A stretch of DNA of 19,224 nucleotides from an uncultured Asticcacaulis sp. (GTDB taxonomy: Bacteria; Pseudomonadota; Alphaproteobacteria; Caulobacterales; Caulobacteraceae), in NCBI GenBank assembly GCA_946480125.1, contig CAMLIY010000032.1, positions 1-19,224 of the forward strand, read 5' to 3'. Shown piece by piece: positions 1 to 15,393 of this stretch; within the stretch, counting starts at the first letter, position 1; every line of letters starts with the position of its first letter. The notes beneath the pieces were generated by a model. That model saw only the letters and a list, made by a program, of their open reading frames with translations, was not told the origin of the DNA and did no database searches. The translations under genes and the position numbers were made by a program.

Positions 1-754
1 CGTGCCGCTGATCGCCGAAACCGGCGGGCTGAACGCCATGATCGTCGATTCCTCGACCTTGCCAGAGCAGGTGGTGGCCGACGTCATCACCTCGGCCTTT
101 CGCAGCGCCGGTCAGCGCTGTTCGGCCTTGCGCCTGCTGATCGTGCAGGAGGATATCGCCGATAACCTGCTGAAGATGCTGACCGGCGCCATGGATACGC
201 TGGTGATTGGTGATCCGGCCGATATTCGCACGGATGTCGGGCCGGTGATCGACGCCGCCGCGCGCGACAAGCTGGAAGCCTACCGCCAGTCGATGAAGGC
301 CAACTGGATTCACGCTCTGGAAAAGCCGGCATTGCCTGGGACCTTCCTGCCGCCGACCCTGATTCGGCTGGACAAGATTGAAGACCTGACCACCGAATGG
401 TTCGGACCGATCCTGCACGTCGTTACCTGGAAGGCCGGTGAACTGGAAAGCCTGGTTGCCCGCATCAATGCGCAGGGTTACGGCCTGACCATGGGCGTCC
501 ATAGCCGTATCAAGGCAACGGCGGATGCGGTCAGCGATCTGGCGCGGGTTGGCAATCTCTATGTCAACCGCTCGATGATCGGGGCGGTTGTCGGTTCGCA
601 ACCGTTTGGCGGGGAGGGCCTTTCCGGTACCGGCCCGAAGGCCGGCGGCCCGCATTTCCTGATGCGCTTTGTCAGTGAGCGGACCATCTCCACCGACACA
701 ACCTCTGCCGGCGGTAATGCGACCCTGTTGTCACTGGCGGAGACGGATATTTAG
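1..754 (+). CDS. putA: PutA, C-terminal part (P5C dehydrogenase domain), 5' truncated
   Basis: This is the C-terminal end of the bifunctional proline dehydrogenase / delta-1-pyrroline-5-carboxylate dehydrogenase PutA, which oxidises proline to glutamate. The gene enters the window already open, with codons in phase with base 2, so the true start lies upstream. The aldehyde dehydrogenase signature is visible: ETGGLNAMIVDSS at about residues 6-18 of the visible part (the Glu of the usual E-L/T-G-G motif) and AGQRCSA with the catalytic Cys at about residue 40. The tail PFGGEGLSGTGPKAGGPHF and the TTSAGGNATLLSL ending are typical of PutA. The stop codon TAG at 752-754 shares bases with the stop of a convergent minus-strand small gene. 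A stand-alone P5C dehydrogenase is possible, but the tail favours PutA. Confidence 0.93.
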   Translation, partial: VPLIAETGGLNAMIVDSSTLPEQVVADVITSAFRSAGQRCSALRLLIVQEDIADNLLKMLTGAMDTLVIGDPADIRTDVGPVIDAAARDKLEAYRQSMKANWIHALEKPALPGTFLPPTLIRLDKIEDLTTEWFGPILHVVTWKAGELESLVARINAQGYGLTMGVHSRIKATADAVSDLARVGNLYVNRSMIGAVVGSQPFGGEGLSGTGPKAGGPHFLMRFVSERTISTDTTSAGGNATLLSLAETDI

Positions 755-888
755 GCGGGCGCGCCTGCCGTCACAACCATCCAACCGACGACAACCAGTG
801 AAAATACAATGATCACGATTGCGCTCCATGGAAACCGATCGGCTCCTGGGGTAGTTAAATCGGGTTCTGGCGGTGTATTCGCTGACAT
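751..888 (-). CDS. Small single-span membrane protein, 45 aa, unknown function
   Basis: This short gene was found by reading the minus strand after putA. It encodes 45 residues beginning MSANTPPEPDLTTPGADRF, followed by a hydrophobic segment at about residues 21-40 (WSAIVIIVFSLVVVGWMVV) and ending TAGAPA. A strong ribosome binding site, GGAGGG (893-898 on the minus strand), lies 4 nt before the ATG at 888. The N-terminal half is Pro/Asp/Glu-rich and hydrophilic, so the protein looks like a one-pass membrane microprotein. Its TAA stop at 751-753 overlaps the putA TAG in the tetranucleotide TTAG, so the two genes converge with no spacer. No family was recognised. The start signal and clean hydrophobic stretch make it a real-gene candidate. 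Confidence 0.62.
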   Translation of the reverse strand: MSANTPPEPDLTTPGADRFPWSAIVIIVFSLVVVGWMVVTAGAPA

Positions 889-1094
889 TTTGCCCTCCAT
901 CTATGGATGAAAGATAGGCCGCGTTGCGATAAAAATGCGGGATCGCTTAGAACGTGGCGGCATAAAAAAATTATATGGATGAGAATTGAGCTCAGATTCA
1001 ATCTGACAAGGACAACTCAAATCCCAGGCTTGGCGGTCCTGTGCAAGGGGGGGGGCGCTTGTCCGTAAAATCTGAAAGCCGGTTCACTCCCTGT
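889..1094. other. Intergenic region with palindromes and a G9 run
   Basis: About 200 nt lie between the divergently oriented small membrane-protein gene and the promoter of the amino-sugar block. No coding sequence with a ribosome binding site was found. It holds an A-rich stretch (963-972), two overlapping palindromes at 987-1006 and a run of nine G residues at 1047-1055. It probably carries the promoter of the minus-strand small gene, but no convincing -35/-10 pair could be assigned. Confidence 0.5.
987..1006. repeat. Overlapping palindromes, possible operator
   Basis: TGAGCTCA (987-994) is a perfect 8-bp palindrome. It overlaps TCAGATT-C-AATCTGA (992-1006), a perfect 7+7 bp palindrome with one central base. 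The second has the size and symmetry of a dimeric repressor site. It lies about 90 nt upstream of the -35 element of the RidA-block promoter and about 100 nt upstream of the minus-strand small gene. There is no T-tract, so it is not a terminator. Function is inferred only from symmetry. Confidence 0.4.
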
Positions 1095-1124
1095 TTGACA
1101 GCCTCCATTTATGTAGTTTATATT
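1095..1124 (+). promoter_or_regulatory. Sigma70-type promoter of the amino-sugar/D-amino-acid block
   Basis: A perfect -35 hexamer TTGACA (1095-1100) is followed after 18 bp by TATATT (1119-1124), a 5-of-6 match to TATAAT. Transcription would begin near 1131, about 40 nt before the RidA start codon. This is the best promoter seen upstream of the ten-gene plus-strand block. A perfect inverted repeat overlaps its -10 element and start point, so it is probably repressible. Confidence 0.6.
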
Positions 1125-1139
1125 GTGTAGCTAAACTAC
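1113..1139. promoter_or_regulatory. Inverted repeat overlapping -10: candidate operator
   Basis: GTAGTTTA (1113-1120) and TAAACTAC (1132-1139) form a perfect 8+8 bp inverted repeat with an 11-bp spacer, centred at 1126. The arms cover the -10 element and the probable start site. Inside it, TGTAGTTTA (1112) and TGTAGCTAA (1126) also form an imperfect direct repeat with a 14-bp step. A dimeric repressor bound here would block the promoter. The GntR/UTRA protein encoded at 8385-9191 is the obvious candidate, but no second copy of the site was found to support this. Confidence 0.5.
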
Positions 1140-1170
1140 TTTACAGGTATCTGCATTCAGAGGTTGCTCC

Positions 1171-1557
1171 ATGACTATTACACGCATCGGCGATCCGCGC
1201 TCGGGCAGCGGCGGGCAAATGCTGCCCTTTTCGCAGGCAACCGAAGCCGGAGGCTTTGTATTTGTCTCGGGTCAGGTTGGCTTTGATGCCGGTGGTGAGA
1301 TCGTTCAGGGGGGCATTGTCGCCGAGACGAAGCAAACCATGGATAATATTGTCGCCATCCTTGCCAAGGCTGGCTGTACACTGGCAGATGTGGTCAAGGC
1401 CAATGTCTGGCTTGACGACACCCGTGATTTTGCCGCTTTTAATCGGGTTTATGCCAGCTATTTTGATGGCGTACTTCCGGCCAGGTCGTGCGTACGCTCG
1501 CAGATCATGATTGATGCCAAGGTCGAAATTGATGTTATCGCTTACAAAGCGAAATGA
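1171..1557 (+). CDS. RidA family (YjgF/YER057c/UK114) enamine/imine deaminase
   Basis: A 128-residue RidA-family protein, the usual length. The family hydrolyses reactive 2-aminoacrylate-type enamines and imines released by PLP-dependent dehydratases, giving 2-oxo acids and ammonia; it acts as a cytosolic trimer. The C-terminal signature VLPARSCVRSQIMIDAKVEI carries the catalytic Arg at residue 105 and the conserved Glu at 120. FVSGQVGFD at about 31-39 is the typical central strand. The sequence after PARSCV departs from the archetype (usually EVARLP), suggesting a subfamily other than housekeeping RidA. It is the first gene after a good promoter and lies upstream of a D-serine-dehydratase-type PLP enzyme, whose imine product it probably processes. 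The ATG at 1171 fits the family N-terminus; an antiparallel frame is a shadow. Confidence 0.9.
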   Translation: MTITRIGDPRSGSGGQMLPFSQATEAGGFVFVSGQVGFDAGGEIVQGGIVAETKQTMDNIVAILAKAGCTLADVVKANVWLDDTRDFAAFNRVYASYFDGVLPARSCVRSQIMIDAKVEIDVIAYKAK

Positions 1558-1589
1558 GGGATGTTGACGGTTCGCCATCGTCAAACCAA

Positions 1590-1621
1590 GCGATGCATGG
1601 TCCAGGAATTTGATGCATCGC
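1590..1621. repeat. 9-bp inverted repeat in the RidA-SDR gap
   Basis: GCGATGCAT (1590-1598) and ATGCATCGC (1613-1621) are perfect inverted repeats separated by 14 nt. They lie in the 209-nt gap between the RidA and SDR genes, the only large gap inside the plus-strand block. There is no following T-tract, so a simple terminator is unlikely. An operator or an RNA processing/stabilising hairpin is possible. No strong promoter was found between it and the SDR gene; CTGACA (1729-1734) is a weak -35 candidate only. Confidence 0.45.
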
Positions 1622-1766
1622 CTTTGATCAACGCCGCTCTGATAATCGCGCGACCTGACGGACGGGTTGGAAAATGGCGCAGAACCCGGCGATTGGCCGC
1701 TACATTTCAGTATGCTGCGTTAATGGGCCTGACAGGGGTCAAAATAATACTTACTAAAGGTGCGAT

Positions 1767-2537
1767 ATGTTTGATTTCAGCGGAAAGGTCGTTCTTATCA
1801 CCGGGGCGGCAGGGGGTATTGGCCGGGGTCTGTGCGAGGCCTTTCTGGGCTGGAACGCCACTGTACTGGCGCTGGATCGCGATGCCAACGCCCTGGCCGG
1901 CATGGATGAACGCCTGAAGACGGCGGCGGTCGATCTCACCGATCTGGCGGCCGTGAAAGCGACTATAGAGGGTCTGGTGGCTGTGACAGGGCCGGTGGAT
2001 ATCCTCGTCAATAATGCCGGCGCGGCGGCGGCCACGGCCCTGGCCACGCTAAAGCCAGAAGACTGGGTGCACGATCTCGCCATCAATCTCAGCGCCGCCT
2101 ATCACTGCGTAGAAGCGGTGAAGGCCGCTATGTTCGCGCGCAAGTCAGGCGTCATCATCAATATCGGCACGGTCAATGCCAGCCTGGCCCTTGGCCACCC
2201 CGCCTATAGCGCCGCCAAGGCGGGACTGGTCAGCTACACCCGTTCACTGGCCATCGAATATGGCCCGCTCGGTATCCGCGCCAATCTGGTGGCGCCGGGC
2301 ACGGTCAAGACCCAGGCCTGGGCGGAACGCGCCGCGAAGAAACCGGAAGTCTTTGACGATCTGAAGAAATGGTATCCATTGCGCGATTTTGCCGATCCGC
2401 AGGATATCGCCAATGCGGTCGCCTTCCTGTCGTGCGATCTGTCGCGCATGATCACCGGCGTGGTGTTGCCGGTTGATGCCGGTTTGACGGCGGGCAATCC
2501 GGTGCTGGCCGCCGAACTGACCCTGGAGTCGTTCTGA
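1767..2537 (+). CDS. Short-chain dehydrogenase/reductase (SDR), substrate unknown
   Basis: A 256-residue classical SDR, an NAD(P)-dependent oxidoreductase with one Rossmann domain. The cofactor motif TGAAGGIG is at residues 12-19, NNAG at 82-85 and the catalytic YxxxK as Y147-SAA-K151. Asp37 after the second strand (ALDRD) suggests preference for NAD. The position normally holding the catalytic Ser is occupied by Thr135 or shifted (INIGTVNASLALG), which is unusual. AAAGGTG (1756-1762) precedes the ATG. The TGA stop overlaps the ATG of the next gene (TGATG), indicating translational coupling to the PLP enzyme. Context suggests a sugar or sugar-acid substrate, for example oxidation of an amino sugar at C1 or handling of a keto-deoxy sugar acid. 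The sequence alone does not decide. Confidence 0.88.
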   Translation: MFDFSGKVVLITGAAGGIGRGLCEAFLGWNATVLALDRDANALAGMDERLKTAAVDLTDLAAVKATIEGLVAVTGPVDILVNNAGAAAATALATLKPEDWVHDLAINLSAAYHCVEAVKAAMFARKSGVIINIGTVNASLALGHPAYSAAKAGLVSYTRSLAIEYGPLGIRANLVAPGTVKTQAWAERAAKKPEVFDDLKKWYPLRDFADPQDIANAVAFLSCDLSRMITGVVLPVDAGLTAGNPVLAAELTLESF

Positions 2538-3814
2538 TGGCGCTCGATCTCGATCCGATCCTCAATTTACCGCTGCACCCCGGTATCAAGGGGCTGCCAG
2601 CGGCTGCCGAAGGCCTGACCATGCGTGAGGTCGGCGCGCAGGGCTGGAACCTGCTCGATGGCTCGATTCCCCTGCCGGCGGCGGTGATCCGCAGCAACGT
2701 GCTGACGAAAAACCTGAAGGCGTTTCAAGCCTATATCGATCAGGCCGGGGCGAAACTGGCGCCGCACGGCAAGACCAGCATGTGTCCGCAACTGTTCGAC
2801 CGCCAACTGGACGCCGGCGCCTGGGGCATGACGGTAGCGACCTTCTCTCAAGCTAATACGGCGCTGACATATGGTGTCAAAAACCTGCTGATCGCCAATG
2901 AGCTGGTTGGGGAGGCGGAAATCCGGGCGCTTGCAGTCCGGCAGGATGCCGCGCCGGATACTCTGATCCTCAGCCTGGTCGATAGCCTGGCCGGTGTCGA
3001 ACGGCTGGAAGCTATATTGACCGCCGCCGGTGCTGTGCGGCCATTTGACGTGCTGGTCGAACTGGGAATTTCGGGCGGCCGCACCGGGACGCGGACGCGG
3101 GAAGCCGCGCTCGATATCGCCCGTTGTGTGGCGCAATCGCCAAAACTTACCTTGCGCGGGGTTGAGGGCTATGAAGGCCTGATCGTCACCGGCGACGCGG
3201 CGGCGGATGCGGTGAAGGTCGATGCCTTTCTTGATGATTTGCTCGGCCTGTTCCATACCTGCCGGGGCGAAGGCCTGTTCACCGGCGAACCCATAATCAG
3301 CGCCGGTGGATCGGCCTATTTCGATCTGGTGGCGCGCGGCCTCAAGACCGACGGCATCACCCCTTTGCTGCGCAGCGGCTGCTATCTGACGCACGATACC
3401 GGCTTCTATAACAAGCTGCTGGCCCATGTCGGTGAGCGGGCTGTGCTCGGTCCGGCGCCGGCGCTCCATCCGGCGCTGGAAGTGTGGGCGCAGGTGGTTT
3501 CGCATCCCGAACCTGACCTGATCATCGTCAATGCCGGCCGCCGCGACCTGTCCGACGATTCCGCCCTGCCGAAGGTCGAATACCACGCCACACCGGGCGA
3601 GGGGGCCGCACCCGAAGCCGTAACAGACTGGTCGTTTTTCCGCATGAACGACCAGCATGGCTATATCCGCCTGCCGGCCGGCGCTTCGGTCCGTATCGGC
3701 GATTATGTCGGCCTCGGCATCTCACATCCCTGCACCACCTTCGATCGCTGGCCTGTCCTGCTCGAAGTCGATGACGCCTATGCCGTGACCGGCGCCCTCA
3801 AGACCTTTTTCTAA
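2537..3814 (+). CDS. D-serine dehydratase / D-threonine aldolase-type PLP enzyme (fold type III)
   Basis: A 425-residue protein of the alanine-racemase-like fold type III group that includes DSD1 D-serine dehydratase and D-threonine aldolase. These enzymes use PLP plus a divalent metal on D-configured 2-amino acids with a 3-hydroxyl. The PLP lysine is K79 in LAPHGKTSMCPQ. The metal site near the C-terminus is H397-P-C399 in GISHPCTTFDRW; His with Cys matches the dehydratase rather than the aldolase pattern (His/Asp). NDQHG and the LRSGCYLTHDTGFY block fit the family. It starts inside the SDR stop codon and is followed 9 nt later by the deacylase gene. D-glucosaminate (2-amino-2-deoxygluconate) is a D-3-hydroxy-2-amino acid, so ammonia elimination from it is a reasonable hypothesis. 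D-serine or D-threonine are alternatives. Confidence 0.88.
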   Translation: MALDLDPILNLPLHPGIKGLPAAAEGLTMREVGAQGWNLLDGSIPLPAAVIRSNVLTKNLKAFQAYIDQAGAKLAPHGKTSMCPQLFDRQLDAGAWGMTVATFSQANTALTYGVKNLLIANELVGEAEIRALAVRQDAAPDTLILSLVDSLAGVERLEAILTAAGAVRPFDVLVELGISGGRTGTRTREAALDIARCVAQSPKLTLRGVEGYEGLIVTGDAAADAVKVDAFLDDLLGLFHTCRGEGLFTGEPIISAGGSAYFDLVARGLKTDGITPLLRSGCYLTHDTGFYNKLLAHVGERAVLGPAPALHPALEVWAQVVSHPEPDLIIVNAGRRDLSDDSALPKVEYHATPGEGAAPEAVTDWSFFRMNDQHGYIRLPAGASVRIGDYVGLGISHPCTTFDRWPVLLEVDDAYAVTGALKTFF

Positions 3815-3823
3815 GAGTAGTCC

Positions 3824-5293
3824 ATGTCTGTTTCCGCCGATATCCTGTTGCGCAACGGTCTCGTCTTCGATGGCGGCGGGCTTGCGCCCTATGCGGCGGA
3901 TATCGCCATCCGCGACGGTGTGATCATCGCCACGGGTGACTTGTCCGACATGGCGGCGGCTAAAAGCTTCGACCTGGCGGGTAAGGCCGTCGCGCCGGGC
4001 TTTATCGATGTCCATTCCCACGATGATTACGCCTGTATCCACCACCCCGAAATGACGGCCAAGATCAGCCAGGGCGTGACCACGGTGGTGGTCGGCAATT
4101 GCGGTTTGTCGATCGCGCCGCTGCGCTTTCCCGCCGAACCGGAGGAGCCCTTCAATCTGCTCGGTGACGCCAAGGCCTTCGCCTATTCGAGCTTTGCCGA
4201 CTATGCCGCCGCCATCGACCAGGCCCGGCCGGCGGTCAATGTGGCGGCGCTGGTCGGCCACACCACCCTGAGAAAGATTTGCCTGCCGGATCTAGGCAAG
4301 GCCGCCAGTGCAGATGAGCGTCGGCAGATGCAGAATTTGCTGGCGGAAGCTTTGGAAGCCGGCGCCACGGGCATGAGTTCCGGCGTTTATTATCCGCCCG
4401 CCGCCGCCGCTGATCTCGACGAACTGACGGCTTTGGCGCGCACGGTCAGCGCTCATGGCGGCGTCTATGCCACCCATATCCGCAGCGAATATGATGGAGT
4501 CGCCGAGGCCCTGCAAGAGGCCTTCACCACGGCCGGCCCAACGCAAACCCCGCTGATCATCTCGCACCATAAATGCGCCGGCGTCCGCAACTGGGGGCGT
4601 TCGATCGAGACGCTTGGGCTGATCGACACCGCGGCGAAAACGCAGCCGGTTGCCATGGACTGCTATCCTTACACGGCCGGCTCATCGGTGCTGAACCCCG
4701 ACCTGTGCGACGGGGAAATCAAGGTGCTGATCAATTCGTCGGAGACTCATCCGGATCAGGCGGGACGTTATCTCCATGATGTCGCCCGCGAATGGGGCAT
4801 CAGCGAATATGACGCCGCCAAGCGCCTGCTGCCGGGCTATGCCTGCTATTTCCAGATTCACGAGGACGATATGCGCCGCATCCTGGCGCATCCGCTGTGC
4901 ATGGTGGGTTCCGACGGTCTGCCGAATGACAAGAACCCGCATCCGCGCCTGTGGGGCACCTTCCCGCGCGTGCTCGGCCACTATGCCCGCGACCAGAAGC
5001 TGTTTTCGATGGCAGAGGCGGTCGCCAAGATGACGGCTTTCCCGGCAAAGCGCTTCGGATTCCATGATCGCGGCCAGATCGCGGTAGGCATGGCGGCCGA
5101 TATTACTGTGTTTGATGTCGAGACCGTGGCGGATCGCGCGACCTTCGAGAAACCGGTGCAGATTTCCGCCGGTATCGAGGAGGTCTTCGTCAATGGCGTC
5201 CATAGCTGGTCGCAAGGCCAGGGGCTGGCGCGCGCCGGCGGCTTCCTGTCGCACAAGACGGTCACAGCCAAGGCCGTCGCGGCCGGCGAATAA
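3824..5293 (+). CDS. N-acyl-D-amino-acid deacylase (D-aminoacylase family)
   Basis: A 489-residue amidohydrolase of the D-aminoacylase family, near the family's usual length. These zinc enzymes remove acyl groups from N-acyl-D-amino acids. Metal and active-site motifs are visible: FIDVHSHDD (H64, H66), GNCG (C93), ATHIRSE (H218), ISHHK (H248/H249) and VGSDGLPNDK (D364). There is no signal peptide, so it acts in the cytosol. It lies 9 nt after the PLP enzyme and 27 nt before the sugar transporter, in the same probable transcript. Next to a GlcNAc catabolic set, the likely substrate is an N-acetylated D-2-amino acid such as N-acetyl-D-glucosaminate. N-acetyl-D-amino acids from cell-wall turnover are an alternative. 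It is not NagA-like; that activity is encoded separately at 10272. Confidence 0.91.
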   Translation: MSVSADILLRNGLVFDGGGLAPYAADIAIRDGVIIATGDLSDMAAAKSFDLAGKAVAPGFIDVHSHDDYACIHHPEMTAKISQGVTTVVVGNCGLSIAPLRFPAEPEEPFNLLGDAKAFAYSSFADYAAAIDQARPAVNVAALVGHTTLRKICLPDLGKAASADERRQMQNLLAEALEAGATGMSSGVYYPPAAAADLDELTALARTVSAHGGVYATHIRSEYDGVAEALQEAFTTAGPTQTPLIISHHKCAGVRNWGRSIETLGLIDTAAKTQPVAMDCYPYTAGSSVLNPDLCDGEIKVLINSSETHPDQAGRYLHDVAREWGISEYDAAKRLLPGYACYFQIHEDDMRRILAHPLCMVGSDGLPNDKNPHPRLWGTFPRVLGHYARDQKLFSMAEAVAKMTAFPAKRFGFHDRGQIAVGMAADITVFDVETVADRATFEKPVQISAGIEEVFVNGVHSWSQGQGLARAGGFLSHKTVTAKAVAAGE

Positions 5294-5320
5294 TCATCAC
5301 GATAAGGGGGAAACAACACC

Positions 5321-6622
5321 ATGCCGACATCTGGACCTGTAACGGCTGCGAACGCGCCGCAGACCACCCCATGGGGCGCTGTGCTTATGTTCTGCGGCCT
5401 GTTCGCCATCTTCGGCTTTGTCACCTGGCTGAATGGCCCGCTGATCACCTTCTCCAAGCTGGCCTTTAGCTTGAGCGATGTCGAAGCCTTCCTGGTGCCG
5501 TCGGTTTTTTACCTGTCCTACTTCTTCCTGGCCCTGCCATCCGCCTTTATCCTGCGCAAGACTGGCATGAAGACCGGCATGGCGCTGGGCCTGCTGGCCA
5601 TGGCTATCGGCGCCGCCGGCTTCGGCCAGTTCGCCTCCATGCGCCTGTTCCCGCCGACGCTCGTCTCGCTGTTCGTCATCGGCGCCGGGCTGTCCCTGCT
5701 GCAAACCGCCTCCAACCCCTATATCTCGGTGTTGGGCCCCATCGAATCGGGTGCGCAACGCATTGCCCTGCTCGGCATATTCAACAAGCTGGCCGGCGCC
5801 GCCGCACCGGTGGTCATCGGCACCCTGATCCTCAACGGCATCGGCCAAATGCAGGCCCAGGTCGACGCCGCGCCCACTACCGCCGCCCGCGAACTGCTGC
5901 TCAACGCCTTTGCCGCCCGCATCCATCTGCCCTATCTGATCATGGGTGCCTTCCTGGCCGTCATCGCTTTACTGGTTTACAAGTCGCCGCTGCCCAATAT
6001 CAGCGATGACGCCAATCCCGGCACCGGCAAGGGCTTCTGGGCCGCCGCGCCGCAGATGTTCTTCGGCTTCCTGGCCATCTTCTTCTATGTCGGCGTCGAG
6101 GTTATGGCCGGTGATGCCGTCGGCACCTATGGCAATGGCTTCAACCTGCCGCTCGACCAGACCAAGTTCTTCACCAGCTTCACCATGGTGACCATGCTGG
6201 TCGGCTATATCTGCGGCCTGATCGCCATTCCGCGCTTTGTCAACCAGGAAAAGTACCTGACCTTTTCGGCCGTGCTCGGCATCCTCTTCAGCATCGGCGC
6301 CTTCCTCACCAAGGGCTATACCTCGGTCGCCTTCGTCTGGGCGCTCGGTTTCGCCAACGCCATGATGTGGCCGGCCATCTTCCCGCTCGGCATCCGTGGC
6401 CTCGGCAAGCTGACCGAGTTCGGCGCGGCGTTTCTCGTCATGGGCATTATCGGCGGGGCCGTCATTCCGCAACTGTTCGCCCACTTCAAGGAACAGTTCG
6501 GCTTCCAGCTCGTCTTCCTCTGCCTCATGGTCCCCTGCTACGCCTATATACTGGTGTTTGGGCTGGTGGCTGGTCGCAAGGGAAAGCCTGATGCCGCTTT
6601 GGCCGTGCCAACAGACGTCTGA
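5321..6622 (+). CDS. nagP: FHS-family MFS sugar transporter, probable GlcNAc permease
   Basis: A 433-residue major facilitator of the fucose/glucose-galactose/GlcNAc (FucP/GluP/NagP) group; members are 12-span inner-membrane symporters. Family motifs are clear: GFVTWLNGPL at 32-41 in the first span, QTASNPYISVLGP at 128-140 and FNKLAG at 154-159. Hydrophobic segments alternate to the C-terminus. A good ribosome binding site (AAGGGGGAA, 5304-5312) precedes the ATG. It stands between the D-aminoacylase-type gene and the kinase, so it probably imports the shared substrate pool. GlcNAc is the best guess, since NagP-type FHS permeases are common in proteobacterial nag loci that lack a PTS and no PTS gene is seen here. 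It could also accept N-acetylglucosaminate. A perfect palindrome CAGACGTCTG (6612-6621) runs into the stop codon and may be chance. Confidence 0.87.
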   Translation: MPTSGPVTAANAPQTTPWGAVLMFCGLFAIFGFVTWLNGPLITFSKLAFSLSDVEAFLVPSVFYLSYFFLALPSAFILRKTGMKTGMALGLLAMAIGAAGFGQFASMRLFPPTLVSLFVIGAGLSLLQTASNPYISVLGPIESGAQRIALLGIFNKLAGAAAPVVIGTLILNGIGQMQAQVDAAPTTAARELLLNAFAARIHLPYLIMGAFLAVIALLVYKSPLPNISDDANPGTGKGFWAAAPQMFFGFLAIFFYVGVEVMAGDAVGTYGNGFNLPLDQTKFFTSFTMVTMLVGYICGLIAIPRFVNQEKYLTFSAVLGILFSIGAFLTKGYTSVAFVWALGFANAMMWPAIFPLGIRGLGKLTEFGAAFLVMGIIGGAVIPQLFAHFKEQFGFQLVFLCLMVPCYAYILVFGLVAGRKGKPDAALAVPTDV

Positions 6623-6676
6623 AAGACGTTCCCCGATCTCTGATAATTCTCAAGCTAATGATGTGATGTGCCTGTT

Positions 6677-7597
6677 ATGAATACGCCTGATCCCAGCCTT
6701 CAGCTTTTCGCCGGCGTCGATGGCGGCGGCACAAAATGCCGCGTCCGTGTGCGCGATGCCGAAGGCGCCCTGCTCGGTGAGGCCGAGGGTGGTCCCGCCA
6801 ATATCCGTCTGGGGCTGGATATGGTGTGGGCAAATATTCTCGGTGCGCTTGATCAGGCGCTCGTTCAGGCCGGTCGCACATCGGCTAACCGGGATAAGAT
6901 CAGCATCGGCCTTGGCCTGGCCGGCATTTCCGCGCGGCAAGATGCCGAGCGCACGATCAAGGCCGGGCCGAAATTCGGTCGTTGCGACGCCTCTTCGGAT
7001 GCCCATACCGCGTGCCTCGGTGCGTTTTCCGGCCGTGACGGCGCCATTTTGATTTCTGGCACAGGCAGCGCCGCCTATGCCTGGGTCGGGCAAAAATCCA
7101 CTCAGATCGGCGGATGGGGTTTCGAGGTATGCGACAACGGCTCCGCTGCCAATCTTGGCCGTCTGGCGCTGCGTGCGGCGCTAGAGGGACATGATGGTTT
7201 GGCTATACAAACTGACTTTACCCGTCAGTTGATTAAGCATTTTGGCGGCCATCCGTCGGATATCGTTCACTGGGTCACCACGGCCACGCCACGCGATTAC
7301 GGCGCCCTGGCGCCGCTGGTCATGGATTTCGCCAATGATGGCGATGCCGTCGCCAAGGCCCTTGTCCAGTGCAGCGCTGATGATCTGGCGCGCTATATTG
7401 CCAGACTGAACGCCATAGGTGCCCCAAAAGTGTGTTTGGTGGGCGGCATGGCGCCTATCCTCCTGCCCTGGATCAATTCGCAGGCCCGTGCCTGCCTGGC
7501 CCAACCGGAAAACGACGCCATGGAGGGTGCGCTTTTAATGGCCCACGGCACCAGCAACGGACTTGGCGGCGACCTGCGCGAAACGGTGACCCCCTAA
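6677..7597 (+). CDS. BadF/BadG/BcrA/BcrD-type kinase, probable GlcNAc kinase
   Basis: An ATPase/kinase of the ASKHA superfamily, about 306 residues, matching NAGK-type N-acetylglucosamine kinases. The phosphate-1 motif GVDGGGTKCRVRV is at about 13-25 and the candidate catalytic Asp is D108 in SSDAHTACLGAF. The phosphate-2 and adenosine regions are ILISGTGSAAYAW and VCLVGGMAP. The usual GD-E-GSG loop reads CDNGSAANLGR, with Asn where Glu is typical, so substrate or nucleotide handling may differ. The start is uncertain: ATG at 6677 is preferred, with a GTG at 6668 three codons upstream; neither has a good ribosome binding site. The stop overlaps the next ATG by one base (TAATG). It would make GlcNAc-6-P for NagA; glucosamine kinase is an alternative. 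Confidence 0.83.
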   Translation: MNTPDPSLQLFAGVDGGGTKCRVRVRDAEGALLGEAEGGPANIRLGLDMVWANILGALDQALVQAGRTSANRDKISIGLGLAGISARQDAERTIKAGPKFGRCDASSDAHTACLGAFSGRDGAILISGTGSAAYAWVGQKSTQIGGWGFEVCDNGSAANLGRLALRAALEGHDGLAIQTDFTRQLIKHFGGHPSDIVHWVTTATPRDYGALAPLVMDFANDGDAVAKALVQCSADDLARYIARLNAIGAPKVCLVGGMAPILLPWINSQARACLAQPENDAMEGALLMAHGTSNGLGGDLRETVTP

Positions 7598-8388
7598 TGT
7601 CAAAAGACATGCTCAAATCGGCGCCCCCCCTTTTACTGGAAGTCGTCGTGGACACTGCCGCTGGTTTGCGCACGGCCATGGACCATGGCGCTGACCGCGT
7701 AGAATTGGTAGCGGCGCTGGTCGAAGGCGGGCTCACCCCTTCCGGTGGTCTGATGCGTCTGGCGGCGGACAGCGGCAATGAACGCGGCATCCCGACCCGC
7801 GCCATGATCCGACCACGCGCGGGTGATTTTACCTATACGACCGATGAGCTGCATATTATGCATAATGATATCGTGGCAGCGGCCTCAAGCGGCCTGGAAG
7901 GCGTGGTGCTGGGCGCCAACCTGACATCCGGCGCCCTCGATGAATCCGCTCTCAAAAGTCTCGTGATTCACGCCAAGGCGCATGGTCTCGCCGTAGCTAT
8001 GCATCGAGGTTTTGATCTCGCACCCGATCTCGCCGAGGCTCTGGAGATTGTCATATCTCTCGGCATAGATACGGTTCTGACTTCAGGTGGTGGACAGACG
8101 GCGGCGCAAGGTCTCGAAAGCCTGGCTGCCCTGGTAAAACAAGCCGCTAATTCGGATGGAACCCGGCGAATCGAAATTCTGGCCGGGAAAGGCATAACGG
8201 CGGAAAATGTCGCAGCGATTCTCGGCGCCGGCATTACCGCCATTCACGCCTCTTGCAATGCGCCTCTGCCGCCGCATGAAAACCGTGCCTTCGCACTCGG
8301 TTACGTCACCGCTACAATGCGCGACACCGATGCTCAATCAGTGGCCCATTTGAAAGCGATGCTGTTAAACGGCGGAACCCCCTCATGA
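7597..8388 (+). CDS. cutC: CutC-family TIM-barrel protein inside the amino-sugar operon
   Basis: A 263-residue CutC-family protein, close to the family's usual length of about 245-250. CutC was named for copper homeostasis, but the family fold is a TIM barrel with enzyme-like conserved loops. Core motifs are present: GADRVELVAALVEGGLTPS, MIRPRAGDFTY, MHRGFDLAPD, DTVLTSGGGQ and ILAGKGI. Cysteines found in E. coli CutC at LEICC, VELC, GDFC and FDMC are all replaced here (Val, Val, Thr, Ala), which argues against copper binding. The true start is the ATG at 7597 overlapping the kinase stop; a longer open frame upstream is a shadow. Its stop overlaps the GntR gene start (ATGA). Tight coupling to kinase and regulator points to a role in amino-sugar metabolism. 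Confidence 0.88.
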   Translation: MSKDMLKSAPPLLLEVVVDTAAGLRTAMDHGADRVELVAALVEGGLTPSGGLMRLAADSGNERGIPTRAMIRPRAGDFTYTTDELHIMHNDIVAAASSGLEGVVLGANLTSGALDESALKSLVIHAKAHGLAVAMHRGFDLAPDLAEALEIVISLGIDTVLTSGGGQTAAQGLESLAALVKQAANSDGTRRIEILAGKGITAENVAAILGAGITAIHASCNAPLPPHENRAFALGYVTATMRDTDAQSVAHLKAMLLNGGTPS

Positions 8389-9191
8389 ATGCCCCTTCCC
8401 GAACAAAAACCTACGCAGCCCAAACTCACTCCGCAGCGAAAGCCTCAGAAATGTCGTTTGCTGATACCATAGGCCACCTGACCAAGGACGATCCATCACC
8501 GCTTTATCTGCAATTGCAGCGGGCCCTTCGCGATGCCATTCAAAGCCGTCAGTTACATCAGGATGACGCCATCCCGCCAGAACGTGACCTGGCAGAAGCT
8601 TTTGACGTTTCTCGCATCACTGTGCGCAAGGCGATCGACGGGCTGGTTTCTGAAGGTTTGCTGACTCGCCGTCGCGGCGCGGGCACCTTTGTGGCATCTC
8701 GCGTTGAAAAAAGTTTTTCCAAACTCTCTTCCTTCTCGGAGGACATGATTTCACGCGGCCGCAAACCCCATTCGGAATGGGTATCGAAATCGGCAGGCGC
8801 GGTCACGCCAGAAGAGTCGCTGTCACTTGGTCTGTCGCCGGGCGCGCTGGTCTACCGATTCCACCGCGTCCGTTACGCCGACAACACCACCATGGCGCTC
8901 GAATATTCGACCATCCCCGGCTATTGCCTGTCTTCTCCCGAAGCGGTCACCAGCTCGCTTTATGACGCGCTGGAAAAAACGGGCCATCGACCGATACGCG
9001 CCTTGCAACGCCTGCGCGCCGTCGCCTTCCTGCCGGAACAGGCCGAACGCCTCGGCGTCAAACCGGGAGATCCCGGCCTCTTCATCGAACGTCGCGGCTT
9101 TCTCCAGGATGGCCGCGCCGCCGAATTCACCCAGTCCTATTATCGCGGAGACGCCTACGACGTGGTCGCGGAACTCAACGATATAAGCTGA
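8385..9191 (+). CDS. GntR/HutC-family regulator with UTRA domain
   Basis: A 268-residue transcription factor with an N-terminal GntR winged helix (about 38-105; PLYLQLQRALRDAI, IPPERDLAEAFDVSRITVRK, RRRGAGTFVA) and a C-terminal UTRA ligand-binding domain (about 125-262; RFHRVRYADNTTMALEYSTI). HutC-subfamily members such as NagR/YvoA and proteobacterial NagQ bind amino-sugar phosphates and repress nag genes. Its place within the kinase-cutC-deaminase-nagA run supports GlcNAc-6-P or glucosamine-6-P as effector. The ATG at 8385 overlaps the cutC stop. An internal ATG at 8451 would remove a low-complexity N-terminal 22 residues and is an equally possible start. It may act at the inverted repeat at 1113-1139; this is inference. 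The common HutC-type site TGGTATAGACCA was not found. Confidence 0.9.
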   Translation: MNAPSRTKTYAAQTHSAAKASEMSFADTIGHLTKDDPSPLYLQLQRALRDAIQSRQLHQDDAIPPERDLAEAFDVSRITVRKAIDGLVSEGLLTRRRGAGTFVASRVEKSFSKLSSFSEDMISRGRKPHSEWVSKSAGAVTPEESLSLGLSPGALVYRFHRVRYADNTTMALEYSTIPGYCLSSPEAVTSSLYDALEKTGHRPIRALQRLRAVAFLPEQAERLGVKPGDPGLFIERRGFLQDGRAAEFTQSYYRGDAYDVVAELNDIS

Positions 9192-9213
9192 CTGTTACTT
9201 CAAGGATTGTCTA

Positions 9214-10275
9214 ATGCCCTCTACGCTTACCAAACTGCCGATCGACGCTGAAAAGACGTTGATGTTCGCCGAAGCCGCTGAAGGCGGCGCGGCCGTCCAG
9301 CGCTTCCTTACCCATAACAAGGCCGCCCTGGCCCGCCTGGGTGCGCGCCTGAAAAGCAACCCGCCGCGTTCGGTCACCACCGTGGCGCGCGGGTCCTCAG
9401 ACCATGCCGCGACCTATGGCAAATACCTGATCGAAACCCTGACCGGTGTCCCCACCTCGACCGCCGCCATGTCAGTCTCCTCCATCTATGCAGCGCCCGT
9501 AGTGGCGGCGGATTCGCTGTGCATTGCCATTTCACAATCAGGGCGTTCGCCCGACCTGCTGGCCACGGTAGAAGCCCACCGCAAAGCCGGCGCCTATGTT
9601 GTGGCCCTGGTCAATGACGAGGCCTCGCCTCTGGCCGCCCTGGCCGATGAACTGTTGCCATTGTGCGCCGGCCCTGAAAAGTCCGTGGCCGCCACCAAGT
9701 CCTACATCGCCTCGCTCGGTGGCCTGGCCGCTATTGTCGCTGCCTGGTCGGGCGATGAAGCGCTGACCGATGGCTTGAATGATCTGCCGGCACAGCTGAA
9801 TGCGGCGTTTGCCCTCGACTGGACTCCCGCTCTGCCCGTGCTGCAATCAGCGCGCAACCTGTTCGTCATCGGCCGCGGCTACAGTTTTGCTGTCGCTCAG
9901 GAAGCAGCGCTGAAGCTCAAGGAAACCTGCGCCCTGCACGCCGAGGCTTTTTCCTCAGCCGAGGTCAAGCATGGCCCCATGGCGATTATTAATGACGGCT
10001 TTCCGATCATCGGTTTCGCCACCTCTGATACGGCCGGTGAGGGTGTCCGCGAAGCGGCGCAGGAATTTGCGGCGCGCGGCGCATCGGTTCTGCTGGCTAA
10101 TCCGGCCGGTATGCTTGAAAGCACTGTGCATTTGCCAGCCCTGTTAGGCGTTCCCGCGCTTGAACCCATCCTGCAGATCCAGAGCTTCTACCGTCTGGCC
10201 AACAGCCTGTCCGTAGCGCGTGGGCTTGACCCCGACAGCCCGCCTCACCTCAACAAGGTCACGAAAACGGTATGA
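9214..10275 (+). CDS. nagB-II: SIS-domain glucosamine-6-phosphate deaminase (NagB-II type)
   Basis: A 353-residue protein with two SIS sugar-isomerase domains (about 45-180 and 205-343), resembling the isomerase half of GlmS but lacking the glutaminase domain. Proteins of this architecture in nag operons act as glucosamine-6-phosphate deaminases (NagB-II), turning glucosamine-6-P into fructose-6-P and ammonia. Motifs: VARGSSDHAATYGKYLIE, AISQSGRSPDLL, EKSVAATKSYIASL, GRGYSFAVAQEAALKLKET, AEAFSSAEVKHGP and the conserved end PPHLNKVTKTV. AAGGA lies upstream of the ATG, 22 nt after the GntR gene. The last codons overlap nagA by 4 nt (ATGA), which agrees with consecutive steps. No classical NagB is visible in the window. 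Confidence 0.9.
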   Translation: MPSTLTKLPIDAEKTLMFAEAAEGGAAVQRFLTHNKAALARLGARLKSNPPRSVTTVARGSSDHAATYGKYLIETLTGVPTSTAAMSVSSIYAAPVVAADSLCIAISQSGRSPDLLATVEAHRKAGAYVVALVNDEASPLAALADELLPLCAGPEKSVAATKSYIASLGGLAAIVAAWSGDEALTDGLNDLPAQLNAAFALDWTPALPVLQSARNLFVIGRGYSFAVAQEAALKLKETCALHAEAFSSAEVKHGPMAIINDGFPIIGFATSDTAGEGVREAAQEFAARGASVLLANPAGMLESTVHLPALLGVPALEPILQIQSFYRLANSLSVARGLDPDSPPHLNKVTKTV

Positions 10276-11423
10276 CATCGATCAGCTTTATAAACGCGCA
10301 GATCACCACGCCGGACGGCCGGTTGATCACGGGCACCCTGACCTGCGAAGGCCAGACCATCGCGGCGGTGGGTGATCATGCCGCCACCGGCGAGATGATC
10401 GATGTAGAGGGAGGCTATCTGCTGCCGGGCTTTATCGACACTCAGGTCAATGGCGGCGGCGGCGTCCTGTTCAACGACGAAACGACAGCGGCAGGCATCG
10501 CCGCCATTGGTGCGGCCCATCGCAAATATGGTACCACCGCCTTCCTGCCCACCCTCATCAGCGATGAGTTAAGCGTGATTGATGCCGCCATGCGCGCCAC
10601 AGAAGAGGCCATCGCTCAAGGTGTGCCTGGCGTACTCGGAATCCATATCGAGGGTCCCTTTATTTCGAAGCAACGCAAGGGCATCCACAATCCGGAGATG
10701 TTCAGAACGCTCGATGCTGAGTCCAAGGCCCTGCTCAAAAGCCTGAAGCGTGGCAAGACCCTTGTGACCCTGGCGCCGGAAAACTGCACACCGGAAGATA
10801 TCGCCGAACTGGCTGCGGCGGGGGTCATACTGGCCGCCGGCCATACCAATGCGACCTATGAAACAACCGTAGAGGCTTTGAAAGCCGGACTTACCGGTTT
10901 TACCCACCTCTTCAACGCCATGACGCCGCTAACCCATCGTGCGCCGGGCGTCGTCGGGGCGGCGCTGGAAAACCTCACAAGTTATTCCGGCCTTATCGCC
11001 GATGGTCACCATGTTGATTGGGCGGCGCTGCGCATCGCCTTGCGGACACGCCCGATTGATCATTTCATGCTGGTCACGGACGCCATGCCTACCGTCGGGT
11101 CTGAAACCAAGACCTTCGTGCTTAACGGCCAGACTATTATTGTACGCGATGGCGTCTGCGTTGGCCCGGACGGCACACTCGCCGGATCCGATCTCGATAT
11201 GGCCACCGCCGTGCGCAATACGGTCGAGCATATCGGCCGCACCTTGCCTGAAGCCGCTATCATGGCAGCCACGGCCCCGGCGCATTTTCTGGGACTTGGC
11301 GCTTCGCGCGGATCTCTGTCTGTGGGTCAGCGGGCCGATATCGTCTGGATGGATACAGATTTGAAGATGAAGGGCACCTTTATTGGCGCTAAGTCGGATG
11401 AGACTATGGGTTTGCCGGTTTAG
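10272..11423 (+). CDS. nagA: N-acetylglucosamine-6-phosphate deacetylase
   Basis: A 383-residue amidohydrolase, the usual NagA length, deacetylating GlcNAc-6-P to glucosamine-6-P in the cytosol. The metal and catalytic residues are all present: HIEGPF with E127, AAGHTNA with H191, FTHLFNAM with H212 and LVTDAMP with catalytic D270. PGFIDTQVNGGGG at about 52-64 is the family N-terminal motif. It starts with ATGA overlapping the deaminase stop, so it is the last gene of the plus-strand block. Only 32 nt separate it from the convergent minus-strand operon and no clear terminator hairpin lies between. Confidence 0.95.
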   Translation: MTSISFINAQITTPDGRLITGTLTCEGQTIAAVGDHAATGEMIDVEGGYLLPGFIDTQVNGGGGVLFNDETTAAGIAAIGAAHRKYGTTAFLPTLISDELSVIDAAMRATEEAIAQGVPGVLGIHIEGPFISKQRKGIHNPEMFRTLDAESKALLKSLKRGKTLVTLAPENCTPEDIAELAAAGVILAAGHTNATYETTVEALKAGLTGFTHLFNAMTPLTHRAPGVVGAALENLTSYSGLIADGHHVDWAALRIALRTRPIDHFMLVTDAMPTVGSETKTFVLNGQTIIVRDGVCVGPDGTLAGSDLDMATAVRNTVEHIGRTLPEAAIMAATAPAHFLGLGASRGSLSVGQRADIVWMDTDLKMKGTFIGAKSDETMGLPV

Positions 11424-11455
11424 ATTGAAAGTTTCTTTGCTTGTCTAACTATCGC

Positions 11456-11869
11456 TCAGGCGATGATATCCGGACGAATCTTGTCTTCAATCTTGGCAAT
11501 CTGATCACGCAAGGCCAGTTTCTTGCGCTTCAAACGCGCAATCAAAATCTGATCTGGCAAGGGCACGATTTCCAGCGCACTGATGGAATCATCGAGATCC
11601 TTGTGTTCCTGCTTCAATAAAGCGCATTCATTGCGCAGGGCCACAACTTCGTTATCGATCGGCAGTTCACGAATACGCGGTTCAAGATCATCATGCTGAA
11701 CCATCTCTTCAGGCACAAGCCCGATATAGGTGTGCTCGCCTTCGAGACGCTGGGCGATGCGGCGCTCGATGTCCTTATCAGAATCGCCCTTGCCTGTTTG
11801 GCCATCCGTTTTGACCAGATGCAGATTGTCATTTCCGCGCAAGGTCCGGATGTTGCTGTCGTCGTGCAT
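11456..11869 (-). CDS. DUF465/YdcH-type protein with N-terminal extension
   Basis: A 137-residue protein whose last 65 or so residues match the small DUF465 (YdcH) helical family: VVALRNECALLKQEH followed by LIARLKRKKLALRDQIAKIED. The first 70 residues form a polar, charged extension (MHDDSNIRTLRGNDN...) with a motif-like IERRIAQRLEGEHTYIGLVP. The frame is open to 11968, but the ATG at 11869 is preferred because AGAGGAG lies about 10 nt upstream. It follows the TIGR02444-family gene by 37 nt and is probably the last gene of the ubiX operon. Function unknown; DUF465 proteins are usually 60-80 residues, so the extension is unusual. A second, short member lies at 13190. Confidence 0.75.
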   Translation of the reverse strand: MHDDSNIRTLRGNDNLHLVKTDGQTGKGDSDKDIERRIAQRLEGEHTYIGLVPEEMVQHDDLEPRIRELPIDNEVVALRNECALLKQEHKDLDDSISALEIVPLPDQILIARLKRKKLALRDQIAKIEDKIRPDIIA

Positions 11870-11906
11870 GAAACGTCGACTCCTCTCAGGCTTTAAGGGG
11901 TTGAAG

Positions 11907-12446
11907 CTAAAGGACAAAAGGAGACCTAAGCGTTGCCCCCTCCTGGCCTTTATACTGCAAAAAACCACCCTCCGAAAGGGCTTCGCTCAGACGTAAAAGC
12001 GCGCTTTCCGGCATTTCCTTGTTCCAGGCGTAAGACACGGCTTTTAAACTGGCAAACAAATCGGCTTTAACATTCTGATTTATTGACGCATTTCTGGCAA
12101 CTTCCAATGCCGATAGCGCCTCCATAAGAGCCTGTTCGGCCTCCAGTTCAATCACTTTTATTTTTTCGCGCAAAGGCAATCGTAAAGCTTCGTCGCCCGT
12201 TGACAGTTCTGCTTTCAGACGTCTGCGCAATAGCCTTAGCGGCGAGATCAGTGTATCCGACCAGCTCCGCGTCAAAACCACCGCCTCAAGAGCTTGCGGT
12301 TCGCCAACCGTGATGCCTAGTCCGCTCAGCCAGGCTGCCCACAGCAGCAGTGGCACATTCTGGCCGTCCTCATCCTGCAAGCTGAGACAGGCCGCGGCCA
12401 CCCCCGCGCCTGCATAGGCTTGTACGGCCCAATCCCAAAATCTCAC
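11907..12446 (-). CDS. TIGR02444 (DUF2390) family protein
   Basis: A 179-residue protein of unknown function. The N-terminus FWDWAVQAYAGAGVAAACLSLQDEDGQNVPLLLWAAWL is the hallmark of the TIGR02444/DUF2390 family (F-W-x-W/F, LQD..G.NVPLLLW). The remainder is helical and Leu/Ala/Glu-rich with no membrane span or signal peptide. Its start codon overlaps the ubiX stop by 4 nt, so the two are translationally coupled. No catalytic residues are evident. Confidence 0.83.
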   Translation of the reverse strand: MRFWDWAVQAYAGAGVAAACLSLQDEDGQNVPLLLWAAWLSGLGITVGEPQALEAVVLTRSWSDTLISPLRLLRRRLKAELSTGDEALRLPLREKIKVIELEAEQALMEALSALEVARNASINQNVKADLFASLKAVSYAWNKEMPESALLRLSEALSEGGFLQYKGQEGATLRSPFVL

Positions 12447-13033
12447 AGGCTGATATCCTCACCCCAGCGGGTCATCGGCACGTCGATATCGAACAGGGCC
12501 AGGGTTCGCGCCACACTCTGCCGCACCATCTCATCGAGACTTTGCGGCTTGGTATAAAAGGCCGGCATCGGCGGGGCGACGATGGCGCCCATTTCCGTTA
12601 CAGCGGCCATCGAACGCAGGTGGCCGAGATGAAGGGGGCTTTCACGCACCATCAATACCAGCCGGCGGCGCTCTTTCAAACAGACATCAGCCGCACGGCT
12701 GACAAGGGATGAGGTCACGCCGGTTGTAATTTCGCCAAGCGTTTTAATCGAGCAAGGCGCGATCAGCATGCCCAGCGTTCGGAAGGACCCTGAAGCAATG
12801 GCTGCCCCGATATCGGCCGGCTTGTAGGACACGTCGGCCAGGGCATGGAGACCGGACAGTGACTGGTCCGTTTCGGCTTCCAGTGACAAGGCCGCCGCCT
12901 TTGAAACAACCAGGTGCGTTTCAATACCTGCGGCCTTAAGCATTTCAAGCGCGCGGATACCATAAATTGCTCCGGACGCGCCACTTATGGCGACAATAAG
13001 ACGTTGATTAGGTTTCATTTTATCATTTATCAT
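12443..13033 (-). CDS. ubiX: Flavin prenyltransferase UbiX
   Basis: A 196-residue UbiX, which joins dimethylallyl phosphate to FMN to make the prenylated flavin used by UbiD-type decarboxylases in ubiquinone synthesis. Motifs: VAISGASGAIYG (about 14-25, flavin binding), APCSIKTLGEITTGVTSSLVSRA and the block RRRLVLMVRESPLHLGHLRSM. Starts at 13033 (MINDK) or 13018 (MKPNQ) are both possible; neither has a clear ribosome binding site. The gene leads a minus-strand operon with the TIGR02444 and DUF465 genes. No UbiD is in the window. Confidence 0.94.
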   Translation of the reverse strand: MINDKMKPNQRLIVAISGASGAIYGIRALEMLKAAGIETHLVVSKAAALSLEAETDQSLSGLHALADVSYKPADIGAAIASGSFRTLGMLIAPCSIKTLGEITTGVTSSLVSRAADVCLKERRRLVLMVRESPLHLGHLRSMAAVTEMGAIVAPPMPAFYTKPQSLDEMVRQSVARTLALFDIDVPMTRWGEDISL

Positions 13034-13062
13034 AACGTAGAATTGCTTAATGCAGCCTATAC

Positions 13063-13068
13063 TATAAT
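13063..13068 (+). promoter_or_regulatory. Consensus -10 (TATAAT) upstream of the short DUF465 gene
   Basis: A perfect TATAAT lies in the 156-nt divergent gap between ubiX and the short DUF465 gene, about 120 nt before the latter's start. The -35 is weak: 17 bp upstream reads GAATTG. Transcription from here would give a leader of about 110 nt containing the hairpin at 13141-13162. Its use for ubiX on the other strand is unclear. Confidence 0.35.
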
Positions 13069-13140
13069 TCTCTCGTTACCGTGATCGCATGTAACGGTTT
13101 GTGATTACACATTCGCGTCTTCCGGGTGTTCCCTGTAAGG

Positions 13141-13162
13141 GCCGGAACATTGGGGTTCCGGC
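13141..13162 (+). promoter_or_regulatory. Leader hairpin before the short DUF465 gene
   Basis: GCCGGAAC (13141-13148) and GTTCCGGC (13155-13162) form a perfect 8-bp stem with a 6-nt loop (ATTGGG). It sits 12 nt before the GAAGGA ribosome binding site (13175-13180) and has no T-tract, so it is not a terminator. It may stabilise the message or affect ribosome access, or be an operator in DNA form. Confidence 0.45.
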
Positions 13163-13189
13163 AATAGAGACATTGAAGGACATTGCCTA

Positions 13190-13387: not shown

Positions 13388-13448
13388 GCTTGCGTCTTAA
13401 GCTTTGACCACAAGAATTCTGACTGCGCCAGGTTCGAGCGGCGCACAG

Positions 13449-14480: not shown

Positions 14481-14481
14481 G

Positions 14482-15386: not shown

Positions 15387-15393
15387 GGTTTTG

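Follow-up and report, generated by a model that had tools for sequence, protein, structure and literature searches.

A route for GlcNAc1A, the C1-oxidised form of N-acetylglucosamine (GlcNAc) obtained when lytic polysaccharide monooxygenases (LPMOs) cut chitin, is known from the ong cluster of Pseudoalteromonas, with the deacylase OngB, the pyridoxal phosphate (PLP) lyase OngC and the RidA-type protein OngD (PMC9537276). Plain GlcNAc catabolism is represented by the Shewanella-type nag operon. The glucosaminate route predicted for haloarchaea uses other enzymes, as far as the available text of PMC12343721 goes, and NagX, in the accessible portion of PMC9007349, is a separate matter. Among the regulators, RccR of Pseudomonas is described in the accessible part of PMC5489143 as binding TGTAGT/ACTACA repeats in 15- and 28-base sites, nested at its own gene, with 2-keto-3-deoxy-6-phosphogluconate (KDPG) as its ligand. 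Here we describe a locus in which enzyme classes of the ong kind stand directly upstream of nag genes. It lies in a 19,224-nucleotide stretch (hereafter the window) of an uncultured Asticcacaulis sp. (assembly GCA_946480125.1, contig CAMLIY010000032.1, positions 1 to 19,224 of the forward strand). A module of four genes, encoding RidA, a short-chain dehydrogenase/reductase (SDR), a PLP lyase and a deacylase, is joined there to an FHS transporter gene and five further genes of a nag locus. Beyond an earlier sequence-only reading of this DNA, our analysis adds an operator swap, a decayed gene between RidA and the SDR, and the possibility that the SDR catalyses the first step of the route. The features are as follows.

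1095..1124, + strand: promoter-like TTGACA-18-TATATT 5' of the RidA gene (11/12 consensus matches)
1112..1140, + strand: 29-base nested inverted repeat TGTAGT...TGTAGCTAAACTACT with TGTAG/CTAC arms, candidate operator of an RpiR-type (RccR/HexR-like) regulator
1171..1557, + strand: RidA family protein of the enamine/imine hydrolase type, OngD-like (TIGR00004 over cut-off; PARS motif)
1693..1758, + strand: remnant of the 3' end of a gene, here called X, that lies between RidA and the SDR in loci L001, L002, L003 and L089
1767..2537, + strand: SDR oxidoreductase, proposed N-acetylhexosamine 1-dehydrogenase (PRK07074 scores best, with 337.7 bits; cut-off 361)
2537..3814, + strand: DSD1/fold-type III PLP ammonia-lyase, OngC-like (PF14031 over cut-off)
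3824..5293, + strand: subtype V amidohydrolase deacylase of a clade apart from OngB and AfDam (PF07969)
5294..5307, + strand: junction of the module and the nag genes, lacking the inverted repeat of kin loci; homology with nag locus L071 begins at 5307
5321..6622, + strand: FHS sugar transporter, NagP-like, falling in the clade of nag-locus copies from the nearest kin (TIGR01272 over cut-off, followed by NagP under its cut-off)
6668..7597, + strand: BadF-type N-acetylglucosamine kinase, NagK-like (sole model NagK_SO3507, under cut-off)
7594..8388, + strand: CutC family protein (PF03932)
8385..9191, + strand: GntR/UTRA regulator, NagR-like by its place (family profile match)
9214..10275, + strand: glucosamine-6-phosphate deaminase with SIS domain, NagB-II type (best model NagB-II, under cut-off)
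10272..11423, + strand: NagA (TIGR00221 over cut-off)

Gene content and host

The ten genes were assigned to families with Pfam and NCBIfam profiles, and these assignments, together with the positions of the open reading frames, bear out the order, the shared + strand and the families given in the sequence-only reading. Gaps between neighbouring genes range from -4 to 45 bases, with the exception of the 209 bases separating RidA from the SDR. Comparison with Asticcacaulis sp. AC466 gave dN/dS values of 0.014-0.082 for the four module genes (synonymous sites of RidA being near saturation), indicating that they are real genes under purifying selection. NagP, NagK, NagB-II and NagA are encoded together, the first three with models under their cut-offs. 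A nag deaminase was found in 23/25 genomes of the genus of AC466 (E <= 1e-70), and nag loci of that genus show synteny with the right flank of the window. On sequence evidence, the window can be assigned to the nag locus of a bacterium resembling Asticcacaulis, which also fits the alphaproteobacterial host ('Caulobacterales') suggested previously. The PutA gene was considered as a part of the system and ruled out, being an unrelated left neighbour that lies 263 kb away from nag in genome G1011.

A junction of module and nag genes at the transporter

DNA homology to the nag locus of G1011 (L071) begins at 5307, 14 bases 5' of the FHS start and adjoining its ribosome-binding site, with 13 bases separating it from the deacylase stop. 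The module therefore ends at the expected position of the nag promoter, and the claim that the two sets of genes are joined is supported, with the junction lying between deacylase and FHS. In 8/8 kin nag loci, compared over 20 kb each (L030, L071-L077), the inverted repeat ATACCA-N11-TGGTAT (TGGTA in L075) was present directly 5' of FHS; from its place, it is presumably the operator of the GntR protein. This repeat was not found in the window, where a search allowing three mismatches returned 2 matches against 3.3 expected, both beyond position 16000.

Such a join might reflect an assembly chimera of two unrelated operons, a notion in keeping with the SDR being present in 2/25 genomes of the genus (AC466 and G1014), with module and nag genes apart in both. 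We consider this explanation highly improbable. The boundary is confined to 14 bases, and the similarity of the window FHS to the G1011 nag copy extends over the length of the gene, with a DNA identity of 0.896 overall and 0.79-0.95 per 120-base stretch. Moreover, a deacylase-FHS join is also seen in AC466 (L001), whose module proteins are 96 % (RidA), 91 % (SDR), 85 % (PLP enzyme) and 87 % (deacylase) identical to those of the window, and whose FHS downstream of the deacylase is 91 % identical to the window FHS. The nag locus of AC466 is on a separate contig, ordered FHS-NagK-CutC-GntR-NagB-NagA and followed by a right flank like that of the window. In a tree of FHS proteins, which contains two long-branched rows, the module FHS of AC466 grouped with nag copies from the nearest kin of the window (a clade of six rows, 100/99), so that the joining of a deacylase to a nag-type FHS recurs in another, named genome. 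The nag FHS of AC466 itself fell outside this clade, and the module FHS of G1014, L002 and L003 formed another group (100/100). The simplest reading of these patterns is that the join of deacylase and nagP predates the window, with AC466 having acquired its module from such a locus; an artefact is not likely. The FHS gene had itself appeared to be a recombination chimera of module and nag copies in a three-way comparison, an idea that was rejected after closer nag loci were added. Its synonymous divergence (dS) from L071 is 0.35, below that of NagB (0.73) and GntR (0.78).

A promoter-like site and an RpiR-type element precede the module

The promoter-like site 5' of RidA is a consensus match only, and the best of 7 such matches in 700-11900 (shuffle mean 4.2). 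The 29-base nested element occurred in 0 of 300 shuffles, and its inner 14-base pattern has 0.01 expected matches. The RccR/HexR-type operator pattern TGTAG-N5-CTACA is present 5' of the operon with one mismatch, at its last base. The same nested element lies 5' of RidA in the two module-bearing genomes of the genus, AC466 and G1014. Related boxes were found in AC466 5' of a TonB receptor gene, RidA and RpiR, with a further one separating a glycoside hydrolase (GH)-like gene from a second receptor gene. G1014 (L070) has them 5' of the receptor, RidA and GH-like genes. The RpiR proteins of L001, L022 and L089 were nearest to HexR, all under cut-off. The GH-like protein that adjoins these boxes (L001 13695-15677, L070 2702-4687) was recognized by eye and has no Pfam match; it is labelled 'enterotoxin' in databases, which looks like annotation transfer.

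Because the kin operator is missing and a promoter-like site and the nested element lie 5' of RidA, it is likely that the module and the nag genes are transcribed jointly under the module's own control, and we grade the earlier claim of co-transcription in the same way, on firmer grounds than the sequence-only reading could offer. By analogy with RccR, the fused operon would answer to an RpiR protein sensing a 2-keto-3-deoxy-6-phospho acid.

Gene decay between RidA and the SDR

The wide RidA-SDR gap contains the remnant of gene X, a gene of ~383 codons of which the window and G1014 keep only the 3' end. The score of the remnant was reached in 0/300 shuffles against the last 300 bases of X and in 1/300 against the whole of X. 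Given this decay in two loci, the module seems not to need X. The X protein of L001 had no Pfam match, though some homologues have PF02638. Of 7995 candidates scored, 2183 were homologous to this family (L001 6786-7937; L078, L079) at E <= 0.001; its members on Rhizobium and Aminobacter plasmids are accompanied by RidA, a DSD-type PLP enzyme and an aspartoacylase-like protein.

Downstream of the remnant, the SDR has Asp after beta-2, a trait of NAD enzymes. It represents a real difference from the ong pathway. The PLP enzyme shares 140/405 residues with the OngC of Pseudoalteromonas (L080).

The deacylase belongs to a clade apart from OngB

The best PDB match of the deacylase was the D-aminoacylase 1m7j (473 bits). 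With residue numbers and pocket roles taken from the accessible part of PMC12017989, the zinc, catalytic and carboxylate residues are all kept (His68, His70, Cys97, Tyr194, His222, His252, Lys254, Tyr285, Ser291, Asp368 and Arg379). Also shared with PpOngB are Ser292 (C3), Glu226 (C4) and Ala256. Around C5 and C6, by contrast, the window deacylase has Tyr193, Gly290, Leu298 and Gln348 where PpOngB has Ala, Ser, Gln and Gly, so that it carries neither of the two C5/C6-hydroxyl binders, Ser290 and Gln298, and one of the three small cavity residues (Ala256, out of Ala193, Ala256 and Gly348). These differences are not peculiar to the window: among the 120 nearest proteins listed, Gly290 was present in 120, Leu298 in 118, Gln348 in 120 and Ala256 in 120, whilst position 292 was Ser in 36 and Thr in 84.

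A tree of 36 deacylase rows, from which 13 were left out (two partial references and eleven loci present twice under other numbers), placed the window in a clade of 12 rows (100/98), separate from an OngB clade of 14 rows (99/99) that takes in 9g5m and L080. One member of the OngB clade, L081, has Arg298, and position 348 varies within it. AfDam lies elsewhere in the tree. Its hydrophobic pocket consists of Phe191, Met254, Leu298 and Met346, as against Tyr, Ala, Leu and Gln in the window deacylase at OngB columns 193, 256, 298 and 348; our alignment puts an Arg of AfDam at column 298, where Leu298 is paired by structure in the accessible part of PMC12017989.

As it sits in a separate, well-supported clade, the deacylase is not an OngB by membership, although it may work like one. 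The sequence-only reading had taken it for an enzyme of oxidised GlcNAc; its place outside the OngB clade and its lack of Ser290 and Gln298 speak against this. The resemblance of the gene set to the ong pathway, on the other hand, is upheld, with OngB-, OngC- and OngD-type classes encoded together. The locus might accordingly encode the known GlcNAc1A route, supplied by LPMO-cut chitin and with the deacylase acting as an OngB, beside ordinary GlcNAc catabolism. The identity of enzyme classes with those of the ong cluster (PMC9537276, available text) and the retention of Ser292, Glu226, Ala256 and the catalytic and carboxylate anchors argue for this explanation. We nonetheless judge it improbable in view of the tree, the near-invariant C5/C6 positions among the nearest proteins, and the existence elsewhere of genes that do have the OngB residues, beside a GntP permease and an OngC relative (L090-L093). 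The distribution of LPMO genes bears on the same question and is weighed below.

Neighbourhoods of related genes and the nature of the sugar

Members of the deacylase clade from the order of AC466 (L022-L025) lie in RpiR-RidA-PLP-deacylase clusters that have a GntP permease in 4/4 cases. In L022, a GH20 gene (403 bits) and a TonB receptor are also present, and the GntP scores above the cut-off of the gluconate symporter model. An FHS gene is present in 5/6 SDR-bearing clusters (window, L001, L002, L003, L070), the sixth (L089) having an SSF symporter instead, and in 0/6 SDR-less clusters of the clade (L004, L022-L025, L083) within the stretches covered. These patterns fit a rule whereby an imported acid needs no SDR, whilst an imported neutral sugar is made into the acid by it. 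Relatives of the SDR were found in RidA-RpiR-SDR-GH20-M81 clusters in 9/11 plasmid loci, which had been chosen by hand from 58 matching records (the exceptions are L084 and L087). Taken together, the GH20, GntP, TonB receptor, FHS and RpiR genes around these relatives point to an N-acetylhexosamine-derived acid as the substrate.

As to which hexosamine, the module of G1014 has nearby a BadF kinase gene and a gene of the AgaS family, the latter scoring 390.6 bits on a cut frame (cut-off 529.2), which hints at N-acetylgalactosamine (GalNAc), whereas the nag genes of the window hint at GlcNAc. DgoK/DgoA genes lie near the module in L003 and L089. They were considered as proof of a galacto product and kept as a hint only, since DGOK was present in 19/23 genomes and L003 also has a nearby GH16 gene.

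The OngB-type clusters L090-L093, from the orders of Rhodanobacter and Sphingomonas, have GntP in 4/4 cases beside the OngC relative. Their genomes gave no LPMO_10 match, and the acid entering the ong route may therefore come from elsewhere too.

Several neighbouring genes may be recorded here. CutC lies within the nag operon in 8/8 kin loci and also near the SDR-GH20 clusters of Peteryoungia and Allorhizobium (L096, L098), suggesting that it serves hexosamine metabolism and not copper. In a Rhodanobacter genome, the module is followed immediately by a gene of polysaccharide lyase family 8 (L002 12076-14643). At 13591-14925 and 17481-18839 the window has, in common with L071 and L073, a sigma-like gene (identified by eye) with two small genes downstream and, in common with L072 and L074, two related GNAT-like genes.

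A proposed N-acetylhexosaminate route

The gene content, the junction, the absence of the operator seen in kin, the RpiR-type box, the separate deacylase clade and the decay of X are read from the sequence itself; on them we build proposals for the chemistry, the sugar, the regulators and joint transcription. A module of RidA, SDR, PLP lyase and deacylase, with its own promoter and RpiR-type operator, would have inserted at the ribosome-binding site of nagP (FHS). There it would have displaced the operator normally found at this place, presumably the one bound by the GntR protein, so that the nag genes became the downstream part of the module. FHS would import an N-acetylhexosamine, either GlcNAc or GalNAc, which could then enter two branches. 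In one, NagK, NagA and NagB would act in turn. In the other, the SDR would oxidise C1 inside the cell to yield N-acetylhexosaminate, from which the zinc deacylase would remove acetate; the PLP enzyme would eliminate ammonia and RidA clear the enamine/imine. The resulting 2-keto-3-deoxy acid would pass to a kinase and an aldolase encoded elsewhere, and its phosphorylated form would lift repression by the RpiR protein. We regard the chances as evenly balanced that the locus encodes a related N-acetylhexosaminate route of this kind, with the SDR as its first enzyme and the module capturing the nag operon. The fuller version is more tentative, and we hold it possible but somewhat against the balance: that the SDR is a cytoplasmic N-acetylhexosamine 1-dehydrogenase which, with the deacylase clade and the PLP lyase, forms an LPMO-free, non-phosphorylative oxidative route from plain GlcNAc or GalNAc to a 2-keto-3-deoxy acid, and that this route controls the nag operon via the operator of a keto-deoxy-phosphate sensor.

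Several observations weigh against this proposal. An RpiR regulator gene is not among the genes of the window, and the element departs by one mismatch from the full 15-base palindrome; a search loosened to two mismatches gave 1 site against 2.5 expected, not above chance. A weak promoter-like match (9/12) at 6619-6647, in the FHS-NagK gap, makes a separate start for nagK-nagA possible, the number of such matches being not clearly above chance. The SDR is 45-55 % identical to the plasmid relatives listed and scores under the cut-off of its nearest named model. The window has no KDG (sugar-acid) kinase or aldolase gene, and the ones near L003 and L089 may act on other sugars. A search for the LPMO_10 family, whose control gave a match in 1/14 named genomes, was positive in 0/23 genomes with a deacylase relative, OngB-type genomes included. 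Oxidised chitin is therefore not an obvious source of the acid, which also counts against the GlcNAc1A route, though OngB-type genomes equally lack a match; LPMO presence was in fact considered as a separator of OngB-type and window-type genomes, and separates nothing.

Two further points, the Gly290 and Tyr/Phe193 that recall D-amino-acid enzymes such as AfDam, and the Opp/Dpp-type ABC transporters, suited to peptides or amino acids, that adjoin clade members L004 and L083, lend themselves to a different explanation. The deacylase would release D-amino acids, for example D-Ser or D-Thr, from their N-acetyl derivatives, the PLP enzyme would deaminate these and RidA would clear 2-aminoacrylate, with the task of the SDR unrelated and the link to nag due to chance. 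The D-aminoacylase match in the PDB agrees with this, as does the activity of OngC on D-Ser and D-Thr, reported in the accessible part of PMC9537276. We think it unlikely, if less so than the GlcNAc1A route, as clade members are surrounded by FHS/SSF importers, GntP, TonB receptors, GH20 and RpiR regulators, the operator is RccR-like and the SDR relatives adjoin GH20. GntP could carry D-serine, yet its score with the gluconate model is far above that with DsdX.

Implications

N-acetylhexosamine 1-dehydrogenase is an old activity for which we know of no gene. We found no description of such a gene or of this operon in the accessible text of the open-licence literature. Three matches concern UDP-N-acetylglucosamine dehydrogenase instead, the passages of PMC11906056 contained nothing relevant, and the closest reports are PMC9537276, PMC12017989, PMC12343721, PMC9007349 and PMC5489143. 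If the proposed N-acetylhexosaminate route is correct, it would supply a gene for this activity, release GlcNAc1A-like chemistry from its tie to LPMO-cut chitin, and define a new specificity clade among the D-aminoacylase-like carbohydrate deacetylases. The join of module and nag genes offers a clear case of natural promoter capture, in which the type of control appears to have been swapped at a ribosome-binding site and two amino-sugar routes appear wired into one operon.

Comparison with known systems

The window and the ong cluster of Pseudoalteromonas (L080), as presented in the available text of PMC9537276, have in common a D-aminoacylase-like deacylase, a DSD-type PLP lyase and RidA encoded together, and RpiR-type control. 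They differ in that the window deacylase belongs to another clade with a changed C5/C6 pocket, an SDR has been added, and FHS takes the place of SSS. The window is furthermore joined to nag genes, and the RpiR, GH20, SSS and KDG kinase genes of the ong cluster are not among its ten genes, only an RpiR-type box being present.

The four activities of the Shewanella-type nag operon (NagP, NagK, NagB-II, NagA) are all encoded, in the order seen in the eight kin loci. In contrast to that operon, the window lacks the inverted repeat and promoter region 5' of FHS, and has CutC and GntR inside.

With the RidA-RpiR-SDR-GH20-M81 clusters of Rhizobiales and related bacteria (L085, L086, L088, L095-L100), the window shares the SDR group, RidA and an association with RpiR, and 4/9 of these clusters have a D-TA/DSD-type PLP enzyme within the stretch covered. 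Those clusters, likewise of putative function, have M81 instead of the deacylase, GH20 inside, and carbohydrate ABC genes (annotated in L085, L086 and L095) instead of FHS.

Finally, the RccR/HexR regulons of Pseudomonas, in the accessible part of PMC5489143, likewise have TGTAGT/ACTACA repeats whose long and short forms are nested, and RpiR genes occur in the clusters of the window's kin. The window site, at 29 bases as opposed to 28, differs from them slightly in length, and its predicted targets are amino-sugar genes.

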